Shown: one piece after another, positions 37,236 through 47,097 of the stretch
Numbering within the stretch: the first letter of the stretch is position 1
Layout: each line of letters begins with the position of its first letter
IMG/VR virus record: IMGVR_UViG_3300036766_000464
Coordinates: 1-47,097 of that record
Source: a virus
Length of the DNA: 47,097 bases
Direction: 5' to 3' (one strand)
Program-made: the position numbers and the translations under genes
Notes under the pieces: generated by a model
Database searches by the model: none
Told to the model about the DNA's origin: nothing
What the model saw: the letters and a program-made list of their open reading frames with translations, nothing else

Positions 37236-37547
37236 CGTGACATGACAGCCCCCTAAAGGGGGGGCTGTCACGTTTGTCACGCTGCTGTCCAAATTTAATT
37301 TGTCACGCTTGTCACGCTTTGTCACGCTTGTCACGCTTGGCACACAAGGCGCTGTTTTCATTACCGTTTCCACCATAATTTCCCTCTCTATTCTTTTGTC
37401 ACGCTTTGTCACGCCCCGTCACATTGAAAAGTTATCCACATGTGGATAGATTGACGATTATGGATAAGGATTTTACTATTAAGCCATAAGTTATTGTGTT
37501 GTTGGGGTTTAGATGCGTGACAAGATTTTCTTGTCACGCTTGTCACG
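37236..37547. other. Putative replication origin: iterons plus DnaA boxes
   Basis: The 410-bp gap (37214-37623) holds at least ten GTCACG cores: forward at 37267, 37276, 37302, 37311, 37321, 37330, 37398, 37408, 37533 and 37542, with a degenerate one at 37418 and inverted ones at 37236 and 37516. Neighbours within clusters are 9 or 10 bp apart, as GTCACGCTT/GTCACGCTTT units. A consensus DnaA box TTATCCACA (37432-37440) directly abuts TGTGGATAG (37441-37449) in inverted order, followed by an AT-rich stretch to 37500. Iterons, DnaA boxes and an AT-rich segment next to a RepA-like gene are classic parts of a plasmid-type origin. Confidence 0.75.
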
Positions 37548-37623
37548 CTTTGTAAGTATCTGGATTTATTGTGTTCTATTTCTCTATTCCTATTAGTTGG
37601 CATCGACGATGATGGATATAGAT

Positions 37624-38796
37624 TCATGGTTTTTCGCCATTCAGGAGATGGGAAAACATTGCCTGTTCGATTGCGTCGTCCTGGATTTCTACGGCCTTGA
37701 CGTGGATGGTGTTTCCCTTGATCTTGATGTATTTGATTTTCTCAAGGTCGTTTTTTGCGCGTCCAAATGCCTGTCTTTTGGCGGCGGCGTTTCCTCCGTA
37801 TTCCGAGAAAAATTCCTCTCGCCATACCTCTTCCGGGATTTGCGTTGTGCCTAATTTATGGCAGAGGGTAGAGAGGATCACCGCTCCCACCTTGGCCGGC
37901 TTTGTCATCTGCTCCATGGTGGGGTCGTAGCCGATATCGTACTTCAGGACGCACGAATTATCCCGGGGGCCATTACCATAGGAGACCTTGACGAGTTCAT
38001 ATTTTACCGGCATATGCGGTTCGGTGTCCTTGGTTTTTTCCCACCGTATAACATCTCCGGTCAGCAGGATCTCGAGGTCCATGGCGCCCTTGAGCGCGCT
38101 GGATCCCCTGGCGCGGTTCTTGGATTGTTCCGCGTGGCCGGTGTGATGGATGATGATCACCGCGCAGTTGTATTGCGTCTGCAGCCGGTCGCACATATCG
38201 ACGAAAGCCATGGTGTCTTTCGCGCTGTTTTCGTCGCAATCCCCCGGCAGGGCCCGGGCCATGGTGTCGATGACGATCAGGACGGGTAATTCGCTCATCG
38301 CGGCCAGCTTATTGATTTCGCACAGCATTTCATTGATGGTGTCGGGATCGAATTGAACACGGCGGTTTGACATGAGGAATCGGCCGTTGGGGATGGCTCC
38401 GTGCTTTGATTTCCAGGCTGCAACGCGCCGTGGGACCGCGTGCCGGCCTTCCCCGCAAAGATATATGACCGGCCCTTCCTTCACCGTTTTCCCCAGCCAG
38501 GGCACTCCTGCAGCGCAACGGAGGGCGATATCGAGGATGAAGAAGCTCTTCCCGGATCCCGAGGCGCCGAACACCATGCCGGTGCAAGGGGTTTCAATGG
38601 CGTCTTCGACCAGGAACGTCGGCTCGATGAGCTTGAGCTCGTTGACGTCCACCAGCATCGGTTCTGTCGGTTTTGGGGGCGCCTTCTTGGGCTGGGCCCA
38701 TACCGGGGGCGGCACCTCGAGCACTTCCTCGAGCCTGGGGTCGTCGTCCGGGGGTGGCGGGGGTGGCGCGCCGGTGGTGTTGAAATCGATGGTCAC
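37624..38796 (-). CDS. repA-like: RepA-like AAA_25 ATPase / replicative helicase
   Basis: The product is 390 residues, starting at a GTG overlapping the upstream HNH stop (GTGA); an ATG 72 bases upstream would overlap the HNH gene heavily. Residues 10-45 are Pro-rich. The RecA-like core has Walker A GASGSGKS at 77-84, Walker B LIVID at 173-177, and VIIIHHTGH at 213-221. The C-terminus (VILSTLCHKL ... KNDLEKIKYIKIKGNTIHV) looks like a winged helix. This is the AAA_25 family of plasmid RepA (RSF1010 type) helicases. The origin-like iterons lie directly downstream. Confidence 0.82.
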   Translation of the reverse strand: MTIDFNTTGAPPPPPPDDDPRLEEVLEVPPPVWAQPKKAPPKPTEPMLVDVNELKLIEPTFLVEDAIETPCTGMVFGASGSGKSFFILDIALRCAAGVPWLGKTVKEGPVIYLCGEGRHAVPRRVAAWKSKHGAIPNGRFLMSNRRVQFDPDTINEMLCEINKLAAMSELPVLIVIDTMARALPGDCDENSAKDTMAFVDMCDRLQTQYNCAVIIIHHTGHAEQSKNRARGSSALKGAMDLEILLTGDVIRWEKTKDTEPHMPVKYELVKVSYGNGPRDNSCVLKYDIGYDPTMEQMTKPAKVGAVILSTLCHKLGTTQIPEEVWREEFFSEYGGNAAAKRQAFGRAKNDLEKIKYIKIKGNTIHVKAVEIQDDAIEQAMFSHLLNGEKP

Positions 38797-39380
38797 AGGA
38801 GAAAGCCTTGGGACCGCATATACCGCATCGGATCCTTGTGGCTTTTCCCCAGGTTGCACTTTGGACAAGTGGCTTGCATATTCGCGTCCTCGTTTTTCCC
38901 ACCACGAGCGAGGGGGATGATGTGATCAAGGTGGTAGCCGGTTTTTTTTAGGCTTTTTCTGCAAAGAGCGCAGCGATTTTTCTGAAAAGCGAGAAGGCGA
39001 AGGGCAAGGTCGGGAGACAGTTTCCCCTCTCCGGACATTTTCCTCGCTCTTCGGTTGCTGGAATAGATGGCCTCTCTTTCAGGATGCGCGGCCTTCCATT
39101 TTGCTGTACGTCTTTTCTCTTTTTCCGGGTTGACTTTCTTCCATTTGTTGTTACGAATCTTTGCTTTTTCCGGGTTGTTTTTTCTCCAAAGGTTATAATT
39201 TTCTTTTTTCTTCCCCGGGTTTTCTTTTGCCCACTTAACGGCGAGCGCCTTTATCTTTTCTGGATTTTCTTTCCTGTATTTCTTGCCTCGCTCTTTTTCG
39301 TGTTCCTTGTTTTTCTTTCTCCATCGGGCGCAGTATTCCCTATATTTTGCCTTTCGTTCTTCCTCTGTCATTTTGCCCAT
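38793..39380 (-). CDS. HNH homing-type endonuclease 1
   Basis: The product is 195 residues. The N-terminal two thirds is a Lys-rich repeat region (KKNPEKxK..KWxxxNP). The HNH motif is CALCRKSLKKTGYHLDHIIP then LARGGKNEDANMQATCPKCN with four zinc Cys. It is AT-rich compared with neighbours. It starts just after the nuclease stop and its own stop overlaps the RepA-like GTG. It is a paralogue of the second HNH at 40699-41358 (same ending, RERGFLL/RSQGFLL). Likely a mobile element. Confidence 0.88.
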   Translation of the reverse strand: MGKMTEEERKAKYREYCARWRKKNKEHEKERGKKYRKENPEKIKALAVKWAKENPGKKKENYNLWRKNNPEKAKIRNNKWKKVNPEKEKRRTAKWKAAHPEREAIYSSNRRARKMSGEGKLSPDLALRLLAFQKNRCALCRKSLKKTGYHLDHIIPLARGGKNEDANMQATCPKCNLGKSHKDPMRYMRSQGFLL

Positions 39381-40462: not shown

Positions 40463-40702
40463 CTATTCTTTCGCCGCGTCCGGATCGATCACGTTCACGC
40501 CCATCAGCTCTTTCGTGATCACCTGATCGAGCATTTTCAGGAGCACGACATTCCGCTCGATGCTCCCCGCCATTGAGATATTCCGGATCCCCTGGGCGGG
40601 GCTGTCGGCCATGAGGATGTAGTTGTCATCCTTGCGCCTGTACGTCCGTTCGCTGCCGTCCTCGAATTTCAGCGTGATCGCTATGCATCTTCCTTGGCTC
40701 AT
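40463..40702 (-). CDS. Small protein between HNH 2 and the acidic protein
   Basis: The product is 79 residues starting MSQGRCIAITLKFEDGSERT at an ATG overlapping the HNH stop (ATGA). It looks like a small beta fold (KFEDGSERTYRRKDDNYILM) then a helix (NVVLLKMLDQVITKELMG). No family is recognised. Confidence 0.55.
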   Translation of the reverse strand: MSQGRCIAITLKFEDGSERTYRRKDDNYILMADSPAQGIRNISMAGSIERNVVLLKMLDQVITKELMGVNVIDPDAAKE

Positions 40703-41358
40703 AAAAGAAATCCCCTTTCGCGCATGAACTGAATTGGGTCTTTGGAGCCTTTGGATAGATTGCATTTTGGGCAGGTTAACTGGATGTTCGAATTGGTGTT
40801 TTTCCCGCCGAGGGCGAGGGGAATTACGTGGTCAAGATGGTAGGCCCTTCGAAGGCTACCCCGGCAAACAGCGCATCTGTTCTTCTGGAGGGAAAGGAGA
40901 CGGACGGCAAGACCGGGAGATAACTTTCCTTCCAGTTTCGATATTTTGGATCGCCGGTTTGCACAGCGTATTTTCTTCGCCCCGGGGTTTTTTATTTCCC
41001 ACTTCAATTTCGATAACGCAACTCGCTCTTTATTGTTTTCTGCATATTTTCGCTTATAGGAATTAGACTTCTTTCTATTTTTTGCGCTCCAATCTTTTAC
41101 TTGTTTCTTGTACTTTTCTTTGTCTGCAAGATATCTATGTTTTCCATATTCTGATGCCTTTTCTTTGTTTTTTTTATAATACTCCCGACCACCCTCTATT
41201 TTTGCCTTCTTGTTCTTATCTGGCATTACATATTTTGCACGATATTCCTTTATTTTTTCGCAATGCTTTTTTTGATATTCTTTGACTTTTTGAGAAATTC
41301 TTTCTTTATTATCTATGCGATACTTTTTCATGTATTCTTTTTTTTCTTCTTTTGTCAT
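40699..41358 (-). CDS. HNH homing-type endonuclease 2
   Basis: The product is 219 residues, a paralogue of the HNH at 38793-39380: Lys-rich head with repeats (YKKNKEKASEYGKHRYLADK), then CAVCRGSLRRAYHLDHVIPL and ALGGKNTNSNIQLTCPKCNL, ending MRERGFLL. It is the most AT-rich gene of this unit (41000-41350 especially). It starts in ATGA with the helicase stop and ends in ATGA with the next start. Confidence 0.88.
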   Translation of the reverse strand: MTKEEKKEYMKKYRIDNKERISQKVKEYQKKHCEKIKEYRAKYVMPDKNKKAKIEGGREYYKKNKEKASEYGKHRYLADKEKYKKQVKDWSAKNRKKSNSYKRKYAENNKERVALSKLKWEIKNPGAKKIRCANRRSKISKLEGKLSPGLAVRLLSLQKNRCAVCRGSLRRAYHLDHVIPLALGGKNTNSNIQLTCPKCNLSKGSKDPIQFMRERGFLL

Positions 41359-43073
41359 GGCCGTCCCGCAATCCCTATCGCTTTCTCAATGGCGCAACGG
41401 TTTAGTGAGAAATTTATATAACATGCCGCGCTGTATTTTGAGTATTCAGAGTTTCCAAGTGGATCGGTTTTGACGTTATAGCCCAATTGGCGCAGGAAGG
41501 TGATTTGCTTTGGGCTTGCAGAATCATTTAGCCAGGTCTTGCTTTTCTTGGCAGCATCGTTAGTCTCATTTTGGCGAAGGAAATCCGAGGCGGCTGCAAG
41601 GGCCTGGATACGCCCACCGGCAGCGAGTTTGTGAATTTGCTTGTCCAACACCAGTTTTCCCAAGGCATACCATGTATCTTCGCCGTTGGGAGAAAACACG
41701 CCGGCCATCGCCGCAAAACCAGAGGCGAACAAAACGCTTTCACTATTAAATAAATTTATCCACCGGAACGGAGATTGCCCAAGAATGTCTATTTCCATCA
41801 TGTTCACTTCTTCGGGCGCCAGCTCCTTTTCCTTTTCAAAGCGGAAAGAGCACAGCGGACACGTCCTGAACCCCGCGGGGATCTTGGCCCCACAGCCGAT
41901 ATTTCCGTCCCGGTCGGGCCAGATATAGACGTCGGAGGGTTCCGATGGGCAGGTCTTTTCGACGGCCTCGCCTTCGATCTTTGCGCGCTCCTTGTGCATG
42001 CCGTCGCCGGCGTCGAGATCCCCATGGATCAGCAACGAGGTTCCGAAGTCCATGATAACACAGTCCTTTTTAACTACTCCGGGGTACAGCTCCGGGTCGA
42101 CCGTGCGCAGCCCCCGCCCGGCCATCTGAATGAGAGGGCTTTTGCTCGAGCATTGGCGAAGGAGGATGATGCAGGAGCACACCTGATTGTCGTACCCTTC
42201 CGTGAGCACGGCGACATTCAGGACGACCCGGGTGATCCGGCGATCAAACCGCGCCAGGAGCGCCCTTCGCTCGTCGTCCGGTGTCTCGCCCGTCACCACT
42301 TCGGCGCTGATGTTCTTCTCTCCGAATGCCTTGCAAACGTCACGCGCGTGTTTCACCGTGGCGCAGAACACGATCGTCTGCCGGCCTTCGGCTTTCTCCG
42401 TCCAATGCCGGACGATCTCCTGATTGATCGGCACGGTGTTCAGCACGTCGGCGACTTCGGATTGATCGCCGAACGCGGAAGGGACCTTGATGGCGTCGAG
42501 CTGTTCCCGAACGCCGATATCCACGATGAACGCCTTCGGCGGGACGAGGAACCCCAGGGAAACGAGCTCCCCGATGGTGATCCGGTCTGCCACGTTGTTG
42601 AAGTAGGCGCGCAGCGTTTTCTTGTCCGCGCGCTCCGGGGTAGCCGTGAACCCGGACAGCATCATCCCGGGGTTTCGTTCCTTGGCCACGTCGATGATGC
42701 GCCGGTACGTCGGCGAAACGATATGGTGAACCTCGTCGGTGATCACATGGTCGAACGCCGGCATGGTGTCGGTGTGTCGGCAAAGCGTCTGTTGCATCGC
42801 AAAAACCGCATCGCCAGCCCATGATTTCGTGGAGGCGTCGAACAGCGACAAACGCCACTTTGGATTGATCCGCTGAAACTTGCCGAGATTCTGCTGGATG
42901 AGCTCTTGACGATGCTGGATAATGAGAGTCCTTCCACCGACCTTCCCGGCCAGGGCCGAAAGCATGATCGTTTTCCCGGCGCCCGTCGCAGCCATGCAGA
43001 GCGTATTCCCGTATTTTTTGAGGGCTTTCTCAGCCTTATCGACGAGGCCGGCCTGGTAGCCGCGGAGAATCAT
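41355..43073 (-). CDS. SF2 DEAD/DEAH helicase with zinc ribbon
   Basis: The product is 572 residues. Walker A AATGAGKT at 28-35, DEVHH at 113-117, SGFTATP at 140-146, and QMAGRGLR (motif VI) at 316-323 define a superfamily 2 helicase of the UvrB/RecQ-like phage type. A Cys set near 398-422 (IGCGAKIPAGFRTCPLCSF) adds a zinc ribbon. It may unwind origin or recombination DNA. ATGA-coupled to the HTH gene before and HNH 2 after. Confidence 0.87.
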   Translation of the reverse strand: MILRGYQAGLVDKAEKALKKYGNTLCMAATGAGKTIMLSALAGKVGGRTLIIQHRQELIQQNLGKFQRINPKWRLSLFDASTKSWAGDAVFAMQQTLCRHTDTMPAFDHVITDEVHHIVSPTYRRIIDVAKERNPGMMLSGFTATPERADKKTLRAYFNNVADRITIGELVSLGFLVPPKAFIVDIGVREQLDAIKVPSAFGDQSEVADVLNTVPINQEIVRHWTEKAEGRQTIVFCATVKHARDVCKAFGEKNISAEVVTGETPDDERRALLARFDRRITRVVLNVAVLTEGYDNQVCSCIILLRQCSSKSPLIQMAGRGLRTVDPELYPGVVKKDCVIMDFGTSLLIHGDLDAGDGMHKERAKIEGEAVEKTCPSEPSDVYIWPDRDGNIGCGAKIPAGFRTCPLCSFRFEKEKELAPEEVNMMEIDILGQSPFRWINLFNSESVLFASGFAAMAGVFSPNGEDTWYALGKLVLDKQIHKLAAGGRIQALAAASDFLRQNETNDAAKKSKTWLNDSASPKQITFLRQLGYNVKTDPLGNSEYSKYSAACYINFSLNRCAIEKAIGIAGRP

Positions 43074-43237
43074 TCGGCGATCTTCTTCCGAGAATTTTCT
43101 TCCATTACCCTCACAATTATTTGCCTTGCAAGGCGTGAGGGCTTGTACCTTCCGGATTGCCAGTTTTGGACGCTTTGACGAGGGAAACCCGCGTCAATCA
43201 AGGCTTGGCGGGTTTTGCGGGAGATGTATAATTTCAT
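43070..43237 (-). CDS. Cro-like HTH regulator, predicted leaderless
   Basis: The product is 55 residues starting MKLYISRKTRQALIDAGFPR, with an HTH-like run (RQALIDAGFPRQSVQNWQSG then RYKPSR) as in small Cro/YdaS-type proteins. The ATG at 43237 has no strong Shine-Dalgarno and lies one base after the predicted transcription start at 43238. It is the first gene of the replication unit, under a promoter that overlaps a 25-bp palindrome, so self-control is likely. ATGA overlap with the helicase. Confidence 0.6.
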   Translation of the reverse strand: MKLYISRKTRQALIDAGFPRQSVQNWQSGRYKPSRLARQIIVRVMEENSRKKIAE

Positions 43238-43244
43238 GGGCGGT

Positions 43245-43273
43245 ATCCTATAGAAAAGACATCTTCGTGTCAA
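43245..43273 (-). promoter_or_regulatory. Leftward promoter TTGACA-17-TAGGAT
   Basis: On the minus strand TTGACA (43273-43268), 17 bases, TAGGAT (43250-43245). The start should be near 43238, next to the ATG at 43237. It is the mirror of the rightward promoter and shares its operator. Confidence 0.7.
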
Positions 43274-43292
43274 GCGACTTTTCCGCTTGACA
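43268..43292. promoter_or_regulatory. 25-bp palindromic operator over both -35 boxes
   Basis: TGTCAAGCG (43268-43276), a 7-base spacer, and CGCTTGACA (43284-43292) form a perfect 9+9 inverted repeat. Each arm contains one -35 box, so one dimeric repressor here would silence both promoters. The late promoter at 33525-33533 has one copy of the arm. Confidence 0.6.
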
Positions 43293-43315
43293 AATATTTT
43301 CCCATAAAATAGGAT
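43287..43315 (+). promoter_or_regulatory. Rightward promoter TTGACA-17-TAGGAT
   Basis: TTGACA at 43287-43292, 17 bases, TAGGAT at 43310-43315. The start should be near 43322, two bases before an ATG at 43324. It drives the early recombination unit and, across the junction, the small-gene cassette. Confidence 0.7.
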
Positions 43316-43323
43316 AGCCCACC

Positions 43324-43380
43324 ATGATCCTCAAAGGCGTAAAACCTATAAACGCCACGGGGAACGGAGGAAAGGAATGA
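43324..43380 (+). CDS. 18-residue leader peptide, predicted leaderless and coupled
   Basis: The frame encodes MILKGVKPINATGNGGKE and ends in a TGA that overlaps the next ATG (ATGA). Its ATG lies at about +3 of the predicted transcript, so it would be translated without a leader. Its last codons contain GGAGGAAAGGA, the ribosome site for the next gene. It may be a coupling leader; no family is known. Confidence 0.4.
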   Translation: MILKGVKPINATGNGGKE

Positions 43381-43832
43381 GCCTCAAAGTGCTGTTGGAA
43401 TTGAAAGCGAAGTTGCAACAGGAGGCGCAGGAAATTCAGGCATCTATCGAACCGGCCCTCGCCATCGTGAGGGAGCAAGTGGCGAACGCGGATAAGGCCA
43501 TCACGGATCTGCTCACCGCGGATCTTACGGCCATCCGGAAGTTGCAGGAAAAGGAATTTGGAGCGGTACACATTACCAAGGATGGGTACAAGGTCACAGA
43601 AACAATCTCGAAAAAAATTCGCTGGGACCAGGAAAAGCTCTTTGGGGTGTTTCACGTGATTCAATCCACAGGTGACAACCCATTCGAATGGATGAAGGCC
43701 GAATTCAAGGTCGGCGAGAAGGAATTCAGCGCCTACCCGAAGAACATCCAGGCGGTCTTTGCGCCGGCGCGCACCGTCACCCCCGGCGACCCGAAGCTCG
43801 AATTCAAACTGGTGGAGGCGCCCGATGCTTGA
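43377..43832 (+). CDS. Conserved phage protein upstream of Sak4-like gene
   Basis: The product is 151 residues. An N-terminal coiled coil (LLELKAKLQQEAQEIQASIE) is followed by RKLQEKEFGAVHITKDGYKV, KIRWDQEKLFGVFH and MKAEFKVGEKEFSAYPKNIQ, a block I recognise from phage proteins placed before AAA_24 ATPases. It may aid recombination. GGAGGAAAGGA before the ATG; 8-bp overlap with the next gene. Confidence 0.7.
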   Translation: MSLKVLLELKAKLQQEAQEIQASIEPALAIVREQVANADKAITDLLTADLTAIRKLQEKEFGAVHITKDGYKVTETISKKIRWDQEKLFGVFHVIQSTGDNPFEWMKAEFKVGEKEFSAYPKNIQAVFAPARTVTPGDPKLEFKLVEAPDA

Positions 43833-44610
43833 GCTCATCAAGAAGGCGAATTCCTTCGTGCCTCCACAAAAGATCGTCGTCATCGGCGTCCAGGGCATCG
43901 GCAAAACAACCTTCGGCGCCACGTTCCCAGGGGCGGTCCTGTTGCCGGTCGAGGACGGAGCTCACGCCATCGACGTGAACGCACTCCCGCTGGCAACCTC
44001 CTACCAGGCGATCATCGACGCCATCACCGCGCTTCACGGAGAGCACCCGTACAAGACCCTTGTGGTCGATTCGCTGGACTGGCTTGAGCCGCTGGTATGG
44101 GAGGCCACCTGCCAGGCGAACGAGAAGCCGTCCATCGAGTCATTCGGCTACGGCAAGGGGTACACCGAGGCGGATAAATACTGGCGAGTTATCATGGGGG
44201 GATTCGATTCCCTGCGCGCCAACAAGGGCATGCACGTTGTCCTCCTGGCGCACTCCGAGATCAAAACGATCACCCCCCCGGACAGCGATATGTACGATCG
44301 CTACCAGATGCGCCTTCACAAACGCGCGCTGGGCCTGTGGTCCGAGTGGGCTGACGTTGTGGTTTTCCTGACGTACAAAATTGCCATCAAGAAAGAGGAC
44401 AAGGGGTTTGGATCCGACCGCACCCGAGCTATGGGATCCGGCGACCGGGTGATCTACGCTTCCGAACGGCCGGCGTGGAACGCAAAAAATCGCTGGGGTT
44501 TGTCGGACGAGATTTTCATCGGGAAGGATACGACCTACGGAGCATTTCACAAGGAACTCGAGGTCGCCACAAAAGGCAGTTATAAAAACGAGAAACCGGA
44601 GGGCAAGTAG
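43825..44610 (+). CDS. Sak4-like RecA-type ATPase (AAA_24)
   Basis: The product is 261 residues starting MLELIKKANSF. Walker A GVQGIGKTT at 21-29, Walker B TLVVDS at 78-83, a Gly/Tyr-rich GYGKGYTEADKYW and HVVLLAHSEIKTI motifs follow: the AAA_24/Sak4 family. Sak4 acts with a phage SSB in single-strand annealing. The longer frame upstream is rejected as it lies inside the previous gene. The SSB-like gene follows directly. Confidence 0.82.
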   Translation: MLELIKKANSFVPPQKIVVIGVQGIGKTTFGATFPGAVLLPVEDGAHAIDVNALPLATSYQAIIDAITALHGEHPYKTLVVDSLDWLEPLVWEATCQANEKPSIESFGYGKGYTEADKYWRVIMGGFDSLRANKGMHVVLLAHSEIKTITPPDSDMYDRYQMRLHKRALGLWSEWADVVVFLTYKIAIKKEDKGFGSDRTRAMGSGDRVIYASERPAWNAKNRWGLSDEIFIGKDTTYGAFHKELEVATKGSYKNEKPEGK

Positions 44611-45306
44611 ATGAGCGTAGATTTCAACGAGGCACCCCAGCAAGGCAGCGGCGCCGGACCGATTCCGGAGGATAGCGTGGTCGTGGTCGTCGCGGAGATC
44701 CGGGAGCCGAAAGCCGCCAAACAAGGAACAGTAAACCCTCTGTTCTGTCGAGCGAGTTCAGGGTACGAATATCTGGACTTTGAGTTTACGGTTATTTCGC
44801 CGAAGTTCAAAGAGCGAAAGATTTGGGTCAACTACATGCTGGCGTACACCAAAGCGCCGACCGAGAAGAGCAACCAGGCAATCTCAATTTCCATGCGGAC
44901 TTTGCGCGCCATAGTCGAGGCCGCGCGGCACATCAGCCCGAAAGACACCAGCCCCGAAGCGACGAAGGCGCGCATCATCAGCGGCTTCGCCGATCTCAAC
45001 TCCATGCTTTTCCCGGTCGTTGTCGGATGCGAGTGGGGAAATCCAAACGACAGCGGCAAGCGGTATCTCAACAACACGATCAAGCGGATCGTCACGATGG
45101 ATGATGAGCGGTTCGACAAGGTGTTTGATGACCCGGAGGGCTGTCTCCTGTCCAACAAGCCCCTTCCTCCGGAGCCGGACGCCGGCACCGCGGGGGGCCC
45201 GAAACCGGCATGGGTGGCGCCGAAGGAAGAGGCGAAGCCAGCCGAGGCCGCGCAAGGGACGATCCCCGGGGTGAAACAGGCGACGAAACCCGCCTGGGTG
45301 AAATAA
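44611..45306 (+). CDS. Phage SSB-like protein (DUF669 type)
   Basis: The product is 231 residues. The first 160 residues look like an OB fold of the phage SSB/DUF669 kind (VVVVVAEIREPKAAKQGTVN ... YLDFEFTVISPKFKERKIWV). The acidic/Pro-rich tail with repeated KPAWV (PKPAWVAPKEE ... KPAWVK) resembles SSB tails that bind partner proteins. It follows the Sak4-like gene with no gap; they likely act together. Confidence 0.75.
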   Translation: MSVDFNEAPQQGSGAGPIPEDSVVVVVAEIREPKAAKQGTVNPLFCRASSGYEYLDFEFTVISPKFKERKIWVNYMLAYTKAPTEKSNQAISISMRTLRAIVEAARHISPKDTSPEATKARIISGFADLNSMLFPVVVGCEWGNPNDSGKRYLNNTIKRIVTMDDERFDKVFDDPEGCLLSNKPLPPEPDAGTAGGPKPAWVAPKEEAKPAEAAQGTIPGVKQATKPAWVK

Positions 45307-46944: not shown

Positions 46945-47097
46945 ATGGCAAAAAGAATTGAGATGAAGGGGAAACGCTTTGGCATGTTGGTGGTCGTTTC
47001 TTTTTCTCACTACAATAATTATCGTGCTGCCATGTGGAATGCTGTTTGTGATTGTGGAAATACTGTCGTTGTCTATGGATATTCAGTGCGAATCGGG
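46945..47097 (+). CDS. HNH-like endonuclease, 5' part (continues at position 1)
   Basis: The start ATG follows AAAAGGAGAT. The first residues MAKRIEMKGKRFGMLVVVSF continue in frame through the terminal overlap and end at 490. The full protein is 171 residues. A start at position 14 alone, seen in a linear reading, misses 13 residues, including the basic KRIEMKGKRFG block. Confidence 0.85.
   Translation, partial: MAKRIEMKGKRFGMLVVVSFSHYNNYRAAMWNAVCDCGNTVVVYGYSVRIG
46971..47097. repeat. Terminal direct repeat, right copy
   Basis: Identical to bases 1-127. See the left copy for interpretation. Confidence 0.95.

Follow-up and report, generated by a model that had tools for sequence, protein, structure and literature searches.

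How a phage balances two opposing operons that are driven from a single place is the question raised by the junction at 43.24–43.38 kb of IMG/VR record IMGVR_UViG_3300036766_000464, where two divergent gene blocks meet. The window, that is, the whole stretch of DNA analyzed, is a 47,097 bp virus record bearing a 127-bp perfect direct repeat at its two ends (1–127 and 46971–47097), and because of these repeats it is probably a complete phage genome, with either terminal redundancy or assembly from a circle behind them. The phage is apparently of the podovirus type, and among its genes are those for a major head protein, a P22-like portal and the terminase large subunit. Leftward from the junction run a gene for a 55-residue HTH-like protein (43070–43237, minus strand) and one for a superfamily-2 helicase (ResIII/DEAD, Helicase_C; 41355–43073, minus strand). 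Rightward, the plus operon comprises genes for a 151-residue protein (phrog_2480, 43377–43832), a Sak4-like AAA_24 single-strand annealing ATPase (43825–44610) and a 231-residue protein (phrog_2300, 44611–45306) with weak DUF669/single-strand-binding resemblance. The preliminary description of this DNA had read the junction as a doubly leaderless switch governed by a shared operator. We consider it likely that the region is the main bidirectional early control region of the phage and that it is built otherwise, from back-to-back promoters, a leaderless minus-strand message and a plus-strand message led by a hairpin and a Shine-Dalgarno (SD) sequence.

Direct scanning of the sequence confirmed that TTGACA-17-TAGGAT is present on both strands, with the minus-strand −35 and −10 boxes at 43268–43273 and 43245–43250 and their plus-strand counterparts at 43287–43292 and 43310–43315. 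The −35 boxes stand head to head, 13 bp apart, and the −10 boxes are separate, 59 bp apart. An ATG follows the −10 box after 7 nt on the minus strand (43237) and after 8 nt on the plus strand (43324), that is, at +2 and +3 if +1 is placed 7 nt after the −10 box. Under a strict definition (−35 box with at most one mismatch to TTGACA, a 16–18 nt spacer, TANNNT and at least 10 of 12 matches), these two promoters were the sole sites in the whole 47 kb; a looser scan added one plus-strand site, at 43205–43232, inside the small HTH-like gene. Both members of the divergent pair are predicted to be strong promoters of the sigma-70 type.

Scanning IMG/VR with the Sak4, helicase, 151-residue and HTH proteins yielded nine contigs besides the window that include part of the control region. 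Seven relatives carry the 55-residue HTH gene (L015/L027, L014/L030, L013/L033, L016/L028, L017/L031, L029 and L032), and all counts out of eight on the HTH side refer to the window plus these seven, contigs that are few and not independent. L018 starts inside the plus leader, and L035/L011 has a different regulator module; the plus-leader set comprises eight copies, from the window, L013, L014, L015, L016, L017, L018 and L035. A search for HTH relatives across 84,980 species of bacteria and archaea (one genome each) came back empty, which provides no link to a host or prophage, and deposited phages likewise contained no relative of the protein. The Manatee Spring phages, which have the nearest deposited helicases, were discarded as relatives of the locus, the neighbors of the helicase there being other genes. 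When viral contigs were searched with one DNA pattern for the leader, the matches were unrelated stretches and a single relative that was known before, L024, to which L013 belongs.

Comparison of these contigs showed that the head-to-head −35 boxes are kept in all eight despite diverged sequence. The minus-strand TTGACA is present throughout, and the corresponding −10 box reads TAGGAT in six contigs, TACCGT in L013 and GAGCAT in L014, the last of these being weak and thus counting to some extent against the explanation we prefer. Given its placement between two divergent operons and its conservation in the eight contigs, the promoter pair exceeds what chance would be expected to produce.

The same comparison bears on the perfect 9+9 bp inverted repeat over both −35 boxes, which is indeed present at 43268–43292 (TGTCAAGCG-ACTTTTC-CGCTTGACA, 9+7+9 bp) and consists of the two −35 boxes, each extended by 3 bp. 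The −35 hexamer thus makes up six of the nine bases of each arm, and a 7+7 version of the repeat with at most three mismatches is expected about once per window (mean 1.1), this site being the only one found; for these two reasons, the palindrome carries little information that the promoters do not already give. In the eight contigs, the −35 hexamers are separated by 13, 13, 10, 8, 10, 10, 22 and 10 bp, and the matching arm bases beyond the hexamer number 3, 1, 2, 0, 2, 0, 2 and 0. One arm is already broken in L015, the nearest relative. The recognition helix (FPRQSVQNWQSGRYKPSR) is identical in the window, L015 and L029, for which the gaps are 13, 13 and 22 bp, respectively, and since the L029 gap is 9 bp longer with the same helix, a single dimer acting on a fixed palindrome is unlikely. 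No fixed-spacing palindrome or repeat was conserved among the eight control regions compared, and in the alignment of the relatives nothing of the palindrome is kept save the −35 hexamers. As neither arm sequence nor half-site spacing is maintained, the proposed shared single-dimer operator does not hold up, and the inverted repeat is mainly a by-product of two head-to-head −35 boxes. A striking palindrome, in other words, can be merely that.

On the minus strand, the idea of a leaderless message fared much better. The ATG of the HTH gene lies 29–31 nt after the −35 box, equivalent to 7–8 nt after the −10 box, in 8/8 contigs, and the intervening stretches have diverged (ACCGCCC, CGTACACC, GATTTTCC, AGATCCC, GGTTCCC, GCCCGACC and TTCGGGCC), so it is the distance rather than the sequence between −10 box and ATG that is kept. 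No usable SD was present upstream of the ATG inside the predicted minus transcript in any of the eight contigs. Little structure is predicted for the first 45 coding nucleotides (minimum free energy, 0 to −4.5 kcal/mol), as suits leaderless initiation. The 55-codon ORF is a real gene, judging from 11 residues that are invariant among the eight homologs, at identities down to 37%, and from the concentration of substitutions at third codon positions. The transcription start is predicted at about 43237–43238, and that the minus-strand message is leaderless has good computational support.

The 55-residue protein itself is predicted to form a three-helix structure (pLDDT 86), for which the top Foldseek matches are mostly HTH regulators (HigA2, P2 C, C.Kpn2I and Aca2), all at E 0.85 or worse. 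No Pfam or NCBIfam match above the cut-off was obtained, the best being HTH_3 at E 0.05 for one member, and a PDB sequence search with the HTH protein returned nothing meaningful. In the contigs inspected for this, the next gene, a helicase gene or another depending on the contig, either shares bases with the HTH stop codon or begins right beside it (ATGA, TTGA, GTGA or TAATG), and this start on or beside the stop suggests that the two genes may be translationally coupled.

The rightward message appears to be organized differently. The preliminary description had taken the 18-codon ORF at 43324–43380 (plus strand) for a leaderless gene encoding an 18-residue leader; comparison with the relatives, however, revealed that neither its length, nor its frame, nor its start codon is conserved. 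It has 18 codons in the window and L014, 20 in L013, 33 in L015 and 8 in both L017 and L018, in L035 it runs on in frame into the following gene, and in L016 AGA replaces the ATG. What occupies this stretch is a covarying RNA structure, followed by an SD. Hence, of the doubly leaderless reading, the minus half stands as a prediction, on the strength of the −10-to-ATG distance kept in 8/8 contigs and the missing SD, and the plus half is not supported. Taken as a whole, the preliminary description was partly supported: its observations were right and its interpretation half right, with a solid prediction for the minus-strand leaderless start and no support for the operator or the plus leader peptide.

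The RNA structure spans 43328–43363 on the plus strand and consists of two stacked helices, P1 (43328–43332 with 43359–43363) and P2 (43336–43340 with 43352–43356), closed by an 11-nt loop. P1 occurs as TCCTC/GGGGA, TCCTC/GAGGA, TCGCC/GGCGA and TCGTC/GGCGA, and P2 as GGCGT/ACGCC, GGCCC/GGGCC, GGCTC/GGGCC and GACCT/GGGTC. In an alignment of seven leaders, 98.6% of the cells pair, double-sided changes are found in five of the ten pairs, and the covariation score is 0.48, compared to at most 0.09 for slid controls, with the same result when eight members are used. RNAalifold finds both helices unaided, and a covariance model built from the seven leaders recovered the untrained eighth copy, that of L035, at E 1.5e-10 with all ten pairs kept. 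The element occurs once per genome, directly after the −10 box wherever the contig includes the upstream DNA. Single-sequence folds of the plus leader beat shuffled sequences only moderately (z −0.9 to −3.0), which weakens our explanation somewhat. A search of Rfam 15 gave no match up to E 10 over 43200–43450, and a covariance-model search of 51 further loci, reached via more distant Sak4 and 151-residue relatives, gave none either. The conserved 5′ RNA hairpin predicted on the rightward message is a new element.

From the spacing to the −10 box, the plus transcript is predicted to start at 43322–43324, with a 5′ end of AUGA or CCAUGA. If it starts at the A of the ATG, there are exactly four unpaired nucleotides ahead of P1 in each of the eight leaders. 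Just 3′ of the hairpin lies the SD, GGAGG at 43366–43370 (plus strand; duplex energy −9.5 kcal/mol), which serves the gene at 43377 and is mostly accessible in seven of the eight leaders. The exception is the window itself, where most of the SD is predicted to pair within the coding sequence that follows it, a further point against the explanation as a whole. RNAalifold also pairs the SD with a 5′ CCACC/CCUCC, bases that lie mostly upstream of the predicted start; sequestration of the SD by this means was not adopted because the SD is largely free in 7/8 leaders when the RNA begins at the A. In its anatomy, the plus leader is similar to stem-loops that stabilize mRNAs from a position at the 5′ terminus.

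Several other accounts of the two arms deserve consideration. The original model, in which each strand yields a leaderless coding message and a single dimer of the 55-residue protein, bound to the 25-bp palindrome, silences the two together, accommodates the ATGs at +2/+3 on both strands, the 9+9 palindrome covering both −35 boxes, the HTH-like predicted fold and, from L029, a zinc-ribbon-like ORF whose 5′ end is unstructured and lies 10 nt from the plus −10 box. We nonetheless judge it very improbable, considering half-site gaps of 8–22 bp even where the recognition helix is identical, the broken arm of L015 and the failure of the 18-codon ORF to persist in length, frame or start. It is somewhat less doubtful, although still on the unlikely side, that the protein autoregulates via other local sites, such as TTTTCC elements in the spacer, rather than the palindrome. 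TTTTCC/GGAAAA occurs in 11 copies in the eight control regions compared to 1.4 in shuffles (0 of 500 reach 11), but the motif was chosen with the sequences already in view, the count is raised by their relatedness, the copies show no established regular spacing, and L016 and L017 lack it. In the window, such elements lie at 43279–43302 and are a candidate binding site for the small HTH protein.

For the plus leader, the alternatives concern what the RNA does. The hairpin could serve specific regulation, as a processing site or as the target of an RNA-binding protein from phage or host, with the loop AAAACCNATAA as the recognition element, and not be a general stabilizer. The loop sequence is largely kept in most copies while the stems covary, as this reading would predict, but L035 lacks part of it (its loop is 8 nt) and the L018 leader precedes a gene of the Acb2 family, so that the site is not tied to one product; we regard such a role as rather unlikely. 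It is slightly more doubtful still that the 5′-terminal AUG, with no role for a peptide, loads 70S ribosomes and thereby affects the SD-led gene 53 nt downstream. An ATG is present at the predicted 5′ end in 7/8 leaders, and E. coli mRNAs of the same layout bind 70S ribosomes, with an effect on the downstream cistron in some cases (PMC4965119); against this, the ATG is lost in L016 and is conserved no better than its flanks, and, with the stem only 4 nt away from the A of the AUG, little single-stranded mRNA is left for 70S binding. Because the L018 leader stands before a different first gene, the element belongs to the promoter and not to one gene.

According to the explanation that we favor, RNA polymerase transcribing leftward would start at, or 1–2 nt before, the AUG of the 55-residue HTH-like gene, producing a leaderless message with an unstructured 5′ end, and the downstream gene, the helicase gene in the window, would begin on the ATGA overlap and probably be translationally coupled. 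The rightward message would start 4–6 nt before the conserved two-helix hairpin at its 5′ terminus, and its first gene would be translated normally from the SD after the hairpin; the hairpin most likely shields the 5′ end of the mRNA and leaves the ribosome site accessible. A further step, which seems to us a doubtful one, is that one bidirectional promoter feeds two initiation modes: the regulator arm would be translated by leaderless 70S initiation, and the recombination/anti-defense arm from a hairpin-capped, SD-led message, such that changes in the host ribosome pool in the course of infection might shift the balance between the arms without a DNA-binding switch. Were this true, the 5′ hairpin would represent a new family of phage RNA elements. 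In any case, a guess from a single genome has become a small comparative set, with a predicted leaderless start maintained on one arm and a covarying hairpin absent from Rfam on the other, and short, concrete constructs follow from it for studying how phages balance opposing operons at a single control region.

Set beside known systems, the arrangement recalls lambda PRM/PR, with back-to-back promoters, a regulator side that is leaderless (predicted here) and an SD-led first gene on the other side. The lambda cI message is leaderless. The −35 hexamers of lambda PR and PRM are 12 bp apart, compared with 13 bp in the window and 8–22 bp in its relatives. Unlike in lambda, there is no opposing repressor in the window, the HTH-like gene being on the minus side only, no set of ~17-bp operators was recognized, and no match to a tyrosine integrase (PF00589) or serine recombinase (PF00239) was found in the whole window genome, which bears only on lysogeny of the integrase type. 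Moreover, both promoters of the window have a perfect TTGACA, and the rightward leader carries the conserved hairpin. Without an opposing repressor, a conserved operator set or a detected integrase or serine recombinase, the control region is not a member of the lambda-type OR switches.

A doubly leaderless switch would in any event not have been novel, having been published for the telomere phage PY54, in which RACE placed the starts of the cI and cro messages at the AUG, both leaderless (PMC4488713). The window shares with PY54 the divergent promoters and a (predicted) leaderless message for a small regulator, but only one of its sides is predicted to be a leaderless gene, and the layout of L029 is closer to that of PY54. 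Another parallel is with the E. coli 5′-uAUG mRNAs, which combine a 5′-terminal AUG with an SD leader and of which some influence the downstream gene (PMC4965119). Seven of the eight plus leaders likewise have an AUG at the predicted 5′ end, a short leader and an SD-led gene, but here the leader is a covarying hairpin only 4 nt away from the 5′ A, and L016 does without the ATG. Finally, in bacterial bidirectional promoters (Warman et al. 2021), as described in PMC12825309, one symmetric −10 element is used both ways. The window resembles them in its sequence symmetry and in divergent transcription from a compact region, and differs in having two complete promoters with separate −10 boxes and adjoining −35 boxes.

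A better candidate for leaderless messages in both directions than the window is, on the evidence of one contig, L029. There, the plus leader is absent and a 50-residue CxxC...CxxC zinc-ribbon-like ORF (2749–2901) lies directly upstream of the Sak4 gene. Its start, A-rich and unstructured, is 10 nt from the plus −10 box, and its message is likely leaderless. This ORF gave a weak NinG match, below the cut-off.

Variation among the relatives extends to the genes around the control region. In L035, the module of HTH gene and mirror promoters is swapped for two genes at 1683–2371, encoding an HTH_3 protein with an SD and an unclassified one, and this contig keeps the plus promoter and the RNA leader despite the swap, which shows that the control region undergoes modular exchange. 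Genes of the Acb2/Tad1 family (PF24729), an anti-defense type of protein, are found in L018 (61–291, E 3e-19), where the gene takes the first slot after the plus leader, and in L032 (2350–2640, E 4e-22), downstream of the same control cassette. In L002, an HNH-type gene directly follows the HTH gene, in the slot of the window's helicase gene; related HNH-type genes with lysine-rich N-terminal repeats are located at 38793–39380 and 40699–41358 of the window and at 2674–3252 of L002.

Elsewhere in the window, TTGTCACGC repeats in five 23-nt copies form an iteron-like cluster at 37265–37553, near a gene for an AAA_25/RepA-like helicase, and this cluster is a possible replication origin. In the plus block, two 50-bp repeats that are 88% identical (1025–1074 and 2569–2618) each contain the end of a gene together with an SD (GAGTAGGAGGGAA), and duplication of a gene is the suggested origin.
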